From IMG/VR virus record IMGVR_UViG_3300025083_000004, positions 1 to 36,109 of that record: a DNA stretch of 36,109 nt. One strand, given 5' to 3'. Both the position numbers and the translations under genes were made by a program. The notes beneath the pieces are model-generated. The model was not told the origin of the DNA and did no database searches. It saw nothing but the letters and a program-made list of their open reading frames with translations. Below are positions 28,678-30,728 of the stretch, in pieces (position 1 is the first letter of the stretch; each line of letters opens with the position of its first letter). The stretch is from a virus.

Positions 28678-28959
28678 ATGAGTATAGATAAAGTTACAAG
28701 AGAGGAGTGGGATAAATTGGAAGAATTAAAAAAAACCAACAAGGTAGATTTAGTTAACAAACCACCGCATTACCAAGGCAAGATAGAATGTATAGACCTG
28801 ATAAAAGATAGAGTTGGTTCTAATAACTTTCCAGCTTACTTAGAGGGTAACATCTGGAAATATTTATATAGACATAAGGATAAGGACAGCAACATCCAAT
28901 GCTTGGAGAAAGCACAATGGTATTTAAACGCTTTAATTAAACACTACGAAGAACTTTAA
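28678..28959 (+). CDS. DUF3310 protein (93 aa)
   Basis: After a charged N-terminus, residues 27-93 carry the DUF3310 signature: NKPPHYQGKIECIDLIK, then YLEGNIWKYLYRHKDK and CLEKAQWYLNALIKHYEEL. The family is widespread in phages and often mislabelled as a nucleotide kinase; its role is unknown. AAGGAGG lies 5 bases before ATG. It is transcribed away from the early operon, and its stop overlaps the integrase stop by three bases. Confidence 0.9.
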   Translation: MSIDKVTREEWDKLEELKKTNKVDLVNKPPHYQGKIECIDLIKDRVGSNNFPAYLEGNIWKYLYRHKDKDSNIQCLEKAQWYLNALIKHYEEL

Positions 28960-30047
28960 TTAGACATCATTATCTTCTGCATATAGTTACCAACATTTTG
29001 CATTTCTTCGGTGGCTATATGCTCTCTAGTCTTACGGTAACGCTCAGTAGCCTTAATGCTTTTATGTCCCATAAGAGTCTTCACATCTTCAATCTTCATT
29101 TGCTCACCTGCCATAGTACCAAAGTTATGTCTTAGATCGTGGAACGTCACATCTGGACATCCCGCAGCTTTTCTAATTTTGTTCCAAGTGTGGTAAGGAT
29201 ATTTAACACCAAGTATTGTTTCGCTGTTTCTATCGCAAGAGTTAATAATTGCCATAGCCTGATTGTTTAAATGTATTACTCTTGGCTTACCCTGGTAGTC
29301 TGTCTTATGTTCTTGCAAGACTAATTTATTACCATCAAGATCAGACCACTTAGCACCACCAATCTCGCTAACACATCTGCCACCAGTCAAGATACATAGC
29401 CTTATATACTTGATTGAATTTAAGTGTCGCTCGTGTGTTTGTGACTCTATTATATTGATCTGCTTATTTATTTCAGCGAACTCTTTATCTGTTAAAGGTC
29501 TATCACGTTGCATCTCAGGGTTCTTTTTAACGTACTTTGCAGGGTTATACTTAACTAAAGACAATCTAATGCTGTTCTCAAACACAGAACTAATCAATTG
29601 CACCACCCTATTAGCTTGATACTTAGCTCTCTTACTTACCGCAATATGTAGCTTAGTTATATCACCAGTCTCAACGCTCTCTAGTTTCATCTTACCTAAA
29701 GTATTCTTGACATCTCTATCCCACATACGTCTTGGCTCACCATCTATCTTGCCATCCTGCATCTCAACACACTTCTTGTTATTGTTAAACAAGTCTTCTA
29801 GCTTTAACTCAAACGCCTGGTTCAAGGTATAAGCATCAGCATCTATTCTTTTAGCTTCTAATGGATCAATACCTTGTGCTACTTCACCAAGTATCTTTTG
29901 TGCTTTGTTTCTTGCAACACCAATCAAGACATCTTTACTTGCTATCTTCATCTCTCTGGTCTTCTTGTTGTACCTATAATGTAGATAATAACCTGTCTTA
30001 TATATCTTTAATGCGCTCACTTGTTTATCAGTCTGGTATCTTGCCAT
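28956..30047 (-). CDS. int: Tyrosine integrase (363 aa)
   Basis: The catalytic residues are all visible: R224 in TGGRCVSEIGG, K248 in EHKTD, H303 and R306 in FHDLRH, H328 in LMGHKS, and nucleophile Y337 in TERYRKT. The N-terminus has an arm-binding-type region (GYYLHYRYNKKTREMKIA) and a central core-binding region. It would insert the phage at a tRNA gene. GAGGAG lies 8 bases before ATG, and a promoter with perfect TATAAT lies upstream. It converges on the DUF3310 gene with overlapping stops. Confidence 0.95.
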   Translation of the reverse strand: MARYQTDKQVSALKIYKTGYYLHYRYNKKTREMKIASKDVLIGVARNKAQKILGEVAQGIDPLEAKRIDADAYTLNQAFELKLEDLFNNNKKCVEMQDGKIDGEPRRMWDRDVKNTLGKMKLESVETGDITKLHIAVSKRAKYQANRVVQLISSVFENSIRLSLVKYNPAKYVKKNPEMQRDRPLTDKEFAEINKQINIIESQTHERHLNSIKYIRLCILTGGRCVSEIGGAKWSDLDGNKLVLQEHKTDYQGKPRVIHLNNQAMAIINSCDRNSETILGVKYPYHTWNKIRKAAGCPDVTFHDLRHNFGTMAGEQMKIEDVKTLMGHKSIKATERYRKTREHIATEEMQNVGNYMQKIMMSN

Positions 30048-30129: not shown

Positions 30130-30159
30130 ATTATAAATTGAATCTTGTAAAGAAAACAA
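30130..30159 (-). promoter_or_regulatory. Integrase promoter
   Basis: On the minus strand a perfect TATAAT (30135-30130) lies 18 bases after TTGTTT (30159-30154). It sits between the attachment-site candidate and int, so int would keep its promoter after integration. Confidence 0.6.
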
Positions 30160-30207
30160 GGGTTTTTAGTAATAAAAAGTAATGATGTGAAATTGTGTGA
30201 TGGCTTT

Positions 30208-30243
30208 AAAACATAGTGCGCTACCAGGCTGCGCTACTCCCCG
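30208..30243 (-). other. Candidate attP core: 5' half of a tRNA-Pro
   Basis: Read on the minus strand from 30243, the bases follow a tRNA-Pro from position 1 to the anticodon loop: acceptor CGGGGAG, TA, D-stem GCGC, loop AGCCTGGTA, GCGC, A, then anticodon stem CTATG and TTT. After that the sequence diverges and no 3' half (no CATAG, T-arm or CCA) follows. This is therefore a truncated tRNA, as expected for an integrase crossover core. The 5' rather than the 3' half is unusual. Confidence 0.8.
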
Positions 30244-30248
30244 AACAG

Positions 30249-30728
30249 TTAAATAACCGCTAATTTCTGGGGTTTTTCAAGAGGTATGTCATGGACTGAT
30301 ATGCCTATCCGTCTATCATCCGTGCTATTTATTGCATCCATAGCCTCTCTAAAACTCTCTATTGAATTAACAGCTTTCATGGGTTCGTCATGTACAGAAT
30401 ATTGTAGGTATTTGCAATTGTTAAAAGGTAGGAAGTAAACATTCTGATACTTAAGATTAACCAAGGCAAATATATCAATGGTGTTTTCTTTGTACTCTCT
30501 TGACTTGCTGTGTGATCCTTTTCGTAAATCAAACCGCCAACTGTTTCTAGCTTTTTCTATATGGGTAACTGTCTTGACTTGACAGCGATACATTTTGTTT
30601 TGCCATTCAAAAATTATGTCAGCGTTAGCACCATGAGGCATAACTGTTACAGTATCGGTTTCTCTTGCTATCACCGAGCAAGTTAGGTATTCGCCACTCC
30701 TACCTATTCTCTCCGTTGCTCTTGTCAT
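30249..30728 (-). CDS. PD-(D/E)XK nuclease-like protein next to attP (159 aa)
   Basis: Residues include E13 in GRSGEYLT, D37 in ANADIIFEW, and Q50-x-K52 in RCQVKTVT. This D...QxK spacing resembles PDDEXK_5/group-I-intron-type endonucleases. The C-terminal half is not recognised. It is the last late gene, 12 bases after the ejection-protein gene, and ends beside the tRNA half. A terminal position at a prophage edge suggests an accessory (moron) role, for example defence or host-DNA attack. The nuclease call is moderate. Confidence 0.7.
   Translation of the reverse strand: MTRATERIGRSGEYLTCSVIARETDTVTVMPHGANADIIFEWQNKMYRCQVKTVTHIEKARNSWRFDLRKGSHSKSREYKENTIDIFALVNLKYQNVYFLPFNNCKYLQYSVHDEPMKAVNSIESFREAMDAINSTDDRRIGISVHDIPLEKPQKLAVI

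Follow-up and report, generated by a model that had tools for sequence, protein, structure and literature searches.

Location and extent of the attP core

We analyzed the candidate phage attachment site (attP) of a viral contig from IMG/VR (record IMGVR_UViG_3300025083_000004; the window, 36,109 bases). The site contains the first 27 nucleotides (nt) of a transfer RNA (tRNA) gene, tRNA-Pro, and it probably recombines with the first bases of a tRNA-Pro gene in the host by strand exchange in the D-arm. The tRNA piece lies 5 nt past the stop codon of an open reading frame for a PD-(D/E)XK-like protein and 169 nt ahead of the start of the integrase gene (int, 30047). The minus-strand sequence of 30243->30217 is CGGGGAGTAGCGCAGCCTGGTAGCGCA. 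The following features occur at this locus:

30217..30243, minus strand: attP core, nt 1-27 of tRNA-Pro (tRNA positions 1-26: acceptor 5' strand and D-arm), assigned by identity with complete tRNA-Pro starts and by conservation in 47 contigs
30208..30216, minus strand: CTATGTTTT, phage DNA rather than tRNA, included in the core by the initial annotation of the window
28956..30047, minus strand: tyrosine integrase, 363 amino acids (aa) (PF00589, 52.6 bits; Arm-DNA-bind_3, 27.3 bits; phrog_1)
30249..30728, minus strand: PD-(D/E)XK endonuclease-like protein, 159 aa (PF11645, 25.6 bits against a cut-off of 26.1; phrog_5018)

When CC, CT, TC or TT was permitted in the D-loop, the 27-mer was found in 9 of 398 Pseudomonadota genomes, always at the very start of a complete tRNA-Pro gene (nt 1-27); an exact match of 27 bases in 36 kb is far beyond chance. 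The attP holds an exact tRNA gene piece that reaches one gene end (27 bp, from nt 1), and this piece is the 5' part including nt 1, as in phages that use the 5' half. The initial annotation had rightly recognized the 5' part of tRNA-Pro, but had extended the match over 36 bp to the first anticodon base. Its start at nt 1 held, whereas the match stops at 27 bp: a 31-mer consisting of the core and CTATG (GGGGAGTAGCGCAGCCTGGTAGCGCACTATG) was present in none of the 84,980 bacterial and archaeal genomes searched.

Past nt 27, the phage relatives described below had mutually unrelated bases (CTATG, GAATA, AATTA, GATGA, ACATA, TCATA and GGCAG), and real tRNA-Pro genes continued with TCTGG, TCTGC, ACTGG or CTACA. 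Because the 31-mer is absent, the bases of the relatives differ and real tRNA-Pro genes continue otherwise, positions 30208-30216 were assigned to phage DNA, and their resemblance to an anticodon stem is, as far as these comparisons go, chance or a relic. The core ends at tRNA position 26, ahead of the anticodon arm, and therefore does not correspond to any of the known sublocations (anticodon loop, T-loop and 3' end). The initial annotation had made its case depend on a bacterial tRNA-Pro matching all 36 bases; at that length no match was found, and it is the true 27-bp core that matches bacterial tRNA-Pro genes.

Conservation of the tRNA piece in integrase relatives

Relatives (79 loci) were gathered by searching viral contigs with the integrase sequence only, so that the sample was not selected on the tRNA piece; the query alignment for these 79 loci included members first met via the piece. 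We counted the 66 loci that had an integrase of at least 44% identity and enough upstream DNA. A 5' tRNA piece was present upstream of int in 64 of them: tRNA-Pro nt 1-27 (Pro-27) in 47, tRNA-Glu nt 1-38 (Glu-38) in 15 and tRNA-Pro nt 1-39 (Pro-39) in two, with no piece in the remaining two. Its orientation and its place directly upstream of int were constant, and the initial identification of the site as an attP is very probably right.

Among the 47 Pro-27 loci, the 27 nt were invariant except for two D-loop pyrimidines, and these two positions are likewise C or T in real tRNA-Pro genes. We had considered this variation as proof of overlap exchange with the host; the idea was dropped, as the two pyrimidines fall in the putative left half-site and C and T are free to vary in tRNA-Pro. 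The tRNA-Glu assignment is supported by annotated tRNA-Glu genes, which match nt 7-37 at 96.8%. In the two Pro-39 relatives (L214 and L215), whose integrases are 44-45% identical, the piece extends through the anticodon loop.

Three loci differed from this pattern. In L207 and L217, the attP segment directly upstream of int, together with its tRNA piece, is gone, and the integrase frame of L217 is truncated (288 aa). In L201 (the same locus as L152; IMGVR_UViG_3300046170_000088), the integrase is, by domain, 98-100% identical to the Glu type, yet the attP is of the Pro-27 type. This locus may be a natural recombinant, a case of a flexible integrase or a chimeric assembly, and was not counted as proof of shared specificity.

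Organization of the attP region

Additional elements were predicted around the core, all on the minus strand:

30217..30223, minus strand: putative 7-bp overlap (crossover) TAGCGCA, 3' side of the D-loop plus D-stem, at the same place in the frame as the tRNA-Glu anticodon loop TTTTCAT
30224..30228, minus strand: putative left core-binding half-site CCTGG in the tRNA-Pro D-loop, suggested by the YYTGG spacing in Pro-27, Glu-38 and Pro-39
30183..30201, minus strand: putative arm-type integrase sites ATCACACAATTTCACATCA, 15 nt from the core, suggested by the same spacing in Pro-27 and Glu-38 relatives and by the Arm-DNA-bind_3 domain
30130..30159, minus strand: putative int promoter TTGTTT-18-TATAAT, overlapped by the palindrome CTTGTTTTCTTTACAAG (30144-30160; CTTGT/ACAAG) and kept in all aligned relatives

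The putative arm sites of the relatives have the form ATCACACA...CACATCA at fixed spacing. The promoter-like element and its palindrome likely represent a regulated int promoter. Judged from the sequence, a tRNA piece followed at fixed spacing by arm sites and an int promoter is the layout expected of an attP.

The tRNA piece could also be left over from an earlier integration or act as a regulatory mimic of a tRNA, with integration into tRNA-Pro no longer occurring. Loss of the piece in L207 and L217, the latter with a truncated integrase, would fit such a decay, as would the failure to find lysogens in any genome searched. However, the 27 nt remained constant apart from the two D-loop positions across integrases that are 60-100% identical, while the flanks varied; the integrase is intact in its arm-binding and catalytic domains, and the arm-like sites and the promoter are conserved. 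We regard this possibility as the least probable of those considered.

Between the end of the tRNA piece and CCTTGTTTT, an element of the int promoter, there were 55 nt in every Pro-27 and Glu-38 attP measured. On the other side, a left marker (TGGCTGATTT) was located 57 nt from the piece end in two Pro loci (L192 and L201) and four Glu loci (L197, L198, L200 and L202). These fixed spacings indicate that the right end of the piece anchors the attP frame; the length of the piece differs (27 or 38 nt) because the 5' end of the tRNA lies at a differing distance from this end. In MAFFT alignments, CTGGT of the tRNA-Pro D-loop was placed onto CTGGT of the tRNA-Glu anticodon stem, and the core was gapless between L192/L201 and L197/L200. 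The motif YYTGG was present exactly 7 nt ahead of the piece end in all three types (YYTGG-TAGCGCA in Pro-27, CCTGG-TTTTCAT in Glu-38 and CCTGG-TTTGGGA in Pro-39). At the 5' stem of the anticodon arm, YYTGG occurred in only 5 of 77 distinct tRNAs from the loci examined.

These observations also bear on the possibility of an ordinary 5'-half crossover in the anticodon loop, as in cyanophages and in the unrelated tRNA-Pro phages described below, the host then having a tRNA-Pro that is absent from the sampled genomes and matches CTATGTTTT in its anticodon arm. Pieces that extend through the anticodon loop do occur in L214, L215 and the unrelated phages, and the TTT past the stem-like bases of the window is similar to a tRNA loop. 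Such a crossover, however, would break the fixed 55-nt frame, and it is difficult to reconcile with the 31-mer being in 0 of 84,980 genomes, with at least seven differing sequences past nt 27 in the relatives and with a phage sequence TTTTAAA where tRNA-Pro has TTTGGGA. We therefore consider it unlikely.

A predicted crossover in the tRNA D-arm

The simplest reading of these data is that the integrase would bind YYTGG and exchange strands in the next 7 bp, with cleavage positions that we infer from the spacing. It would pair the 27-bp core with the identical 27 bp at the start of the host tRNA-Pro gene, and exchange would probably occur at about nt 21-27 (TAGCGCA), at the right end of the identity and within the D-arm. 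We assign a probability of roughly 0.7 to this reading, taken jointly with the view that the window derives from a marine podovirus-like phage that is temperate or is at any rate able to integrate.

To the left of the exchange, nt 1-20 and all upstream DNA would come from the phage, and to the right, the remaining tRNA would come from the host. With exchange in the D-arm, one junction would therefore place the PD-(D/E)XK gene next to an intact tRNA-Pro. This junction (attR) is predicted to consist of the end of the PD-(D/E)XK gene and CGGGGAGTAGCGCAGYYTGGTAGCGCA, followed by the tRNA-Pro anticodon arm. At the other junction, the host tRNA promoter would read through the 27-nt tRNA fragment towards int. 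Expression of tRNA-Pro in the lysogen would have to come from the PD-(D/E)XK side, either by a phage-side promoter or by read-through. In sister phages, whose integrases are 51% identical, the same attP frame would be used with tRNA-Glu nt 1-38, strands being exchanged in the anticodon loop, and YYTGGT directly left of the exchange would be the recognition feature common to both.

A crossover at the center of the D-loop (nt 15-21) instead of its 3' side was also considered, in which the GCGC repeats of the D-stem would serve as symmetric half-sites. GCGC is indeed present on both sides of the D-loop, resembling the stems around the anticodon and T-loops in known sites. However, the exchange would then be displaced by approximately 6 nt relative to the anticodon loop of the Glu phages in an otherwise identical frame, and this version appears improbable, if a little less so than the two discussed above.

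Several points weigh against an exchange at the 3' side of the D-loop, or against current integration into tRNA-Pro. The right half-site of the tRNA-Pro bacterial attachment site (attB) would not have the inverted CCAGG that an anticodon stem offers, the cleavage positions are deduced only from spacing, and the combination of a Glu-type integrase with a Pro attP in L201 (flexible specificity or recombination) blurs the pairing of int and attP. No convincing sigma-70 promoter for the tRNA was found beside the core, the scan itself being uninformative (3 matches versus 9.2 expected from shuffles). Neither a lysogen nor a host genome of this phage group was detected in the genomes searched. An integrase profile search of the 84,980 genomes returned 62 pattern stretches with no relative among them, and 217 genomes of one order had generic integrases only (172 bits or less). 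The 27-mer was found in none of 297 genomes of the order of G360 (0.7-1.5 Mb; ~31% GC around tRNA-Glu; possibly Pelagibacterales), and the tRNA-Glu piece was absent from sets of 200 and 385 genomes (Pseudomonadota; class of G284).

At the level of the whole group, it is fairly probable that the D-arm serves this clade of integrases from marine phages as a fourth tRNA sublocation. YYTGGT occurs both in the tRNA-Pro D-loop and in the anticodon stems of tRNA-Glu and tRNA-Pro, and the same attP frame would have been refitted to another loop and another tRNA gene while the exchange point remained unmoved. If true, a family with a shared frame that recombines in the anticodon loop of one tRNA but in the D-arm of a second would constitute a natural experiment on how integrases acquire new sites. 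It would mean that these integrases read YYTGGT and the spacing to the arm sites, and ignore the overlap sequence, the identity of the tRNA and the right half-site. In the predicted lysogens, expression of an essential host tRNA would have to be driven by the phage, and that of int would be driven by the host tRNA promoter.

Use of the 5' half of tRNA genes in other systems

The initial annotation had also predicted that recombination would yield an intact tRNA with phage DNA of the PD-(D/E)XK side upstream, and a product of this kind was present in unrelated 5'-half tRNA-Pro phages, whose attP, attL and attR (phage-host junction) forms are all found in IMG/VR. One example involved L148, which has the attP, and L138, which has a complete tRNA-Pro: they are 99.9% identical over 4,756 nt to tRNA nt 43 and then diverge. 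Another is IMGVR_UViG_3300034072_001363 (L118 and L131), where a complete tRNA-Pro lies towards one end; towards the opposite end lies the displaced 5' tRNA-Pro fragment, following a sequence that resembles the end of a different tRNA gene. An intact tRNA with upstream phage DNA thus occurs in nature. The integrases of these phages are 25-36% identical to that of the window, over short stretches only; the cores of these phages extend across the anticodon stem, which gives them the appearance of anticodon-loop users with the 5' half. In addition, the cultured Rhizobium phage RHph_I3_18 (L253) has an unannotated 5' tRNA-Pro piece that runs into the anticodon loop (2501-2540), beside its integrase.

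Use of the 5' half is a known minority mode, and the rarity implied by the initial annotation was overstated. Islander lists a 5' fragment in 159 of 3,919 mapped tRNA islands (PMC4383910). T7-like cyanophages have 39-bp attP motifs that are the first half of tRNA-Leu, and integration occurs; for P-SSP7 and S-TIP37, it was demonstrated, along with the requirement for int and attP, by polymerase chain reaction and deletions (PMC8776855). The window differs from these in its tRNA (tRNA-Leu there) and in its 27-bp instead of 39-bp piece, and the available part of that report describes no D-arm crossover. The archaeal integrases of the pTN3 type resemble that of the window in having the 5' half of a tRNA as attB; the rebuilt tRNA is parted from its own promoter and placed on a new one, a situation said to be seldom met in bacteria (PMC8371274, PMC5495485). 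Unlike in the window, the pTN3 identity is 41 bp long and surrounds the anticodon, and the site lies within the integrase gene; integration splits this gene.

Two phages also have short cores within tRNA genes. In mycobacteriophage Fionnbharth, an example of tRNA-dependent lysogeny, the tRNA is not rebuilt and the phage supplies a full tRNA, whereas the window has no tRNA gene and its 27-bp core would rebuild the tRNA (PMC10865867). CRP-810, a phage of Roseobacter CHUG, is likewise marine and uses a 13-bp core from the central part of a tRNA gene; however, it targets tRNA-Thr, carries its own tRNA-Thr, has a 57.7-kb genome and belongs to a different family as described (PMC11288001).

The way in which integrases use tRNA genes is by standard described with Williams' scheme of three tRNA sublocations (cited in PMC4383910 and PMC8371274), and the crossover classes of Islander (anticodon, T-loop and junction only) do not include a D-arm class (PMC4383910). 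We found no description of strand exchange in the D-arm in the literature searched. The predicted location of the crossover in the tRNA-Pro D-arm, outside the three known sublocations, is what looks new. In database work, 5' cores down to 27 bp are easily missed or over-extended.

Integrase and gene context

The integrase has the arm-binding, core-binding and catalytic domains and the R..HxxR..Y residues of lambda-type tyrosine integrases. PF00589 scored above its cut-off, Arm-DNA-bind_3 at its cut-off and Phage_int_M slightly below, and R224, HDLRH and Y337 were invariant in the alignment of relatives. A relative of the PD-(D/E)XK protein was present on the far side of the tRNA piece in most relatives tested; this gene is on the side that would sit upstream of the rebuilt tRNA.

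Genes for a podovirus-like set of proteins (portal, terminase, capsid, scaffold, tail-fibre, primase/helicase and exonuclease) were identified in the window. Relatives of its portal and terminase in named phages are less than 50% identical and have varied hosts, so that the host cannot be read from them. ARAGORN detected no complete tRNA in the window, on which ground tRNA-dependent lysogeny was rejected and which speaks against a spare-tRNA strategy; an Rfam scan gave no match. A gene for a DUF3310 protein (28678-28959, plus strand) is convergent with int, its stop codon overlapping the int end by 4 nt.
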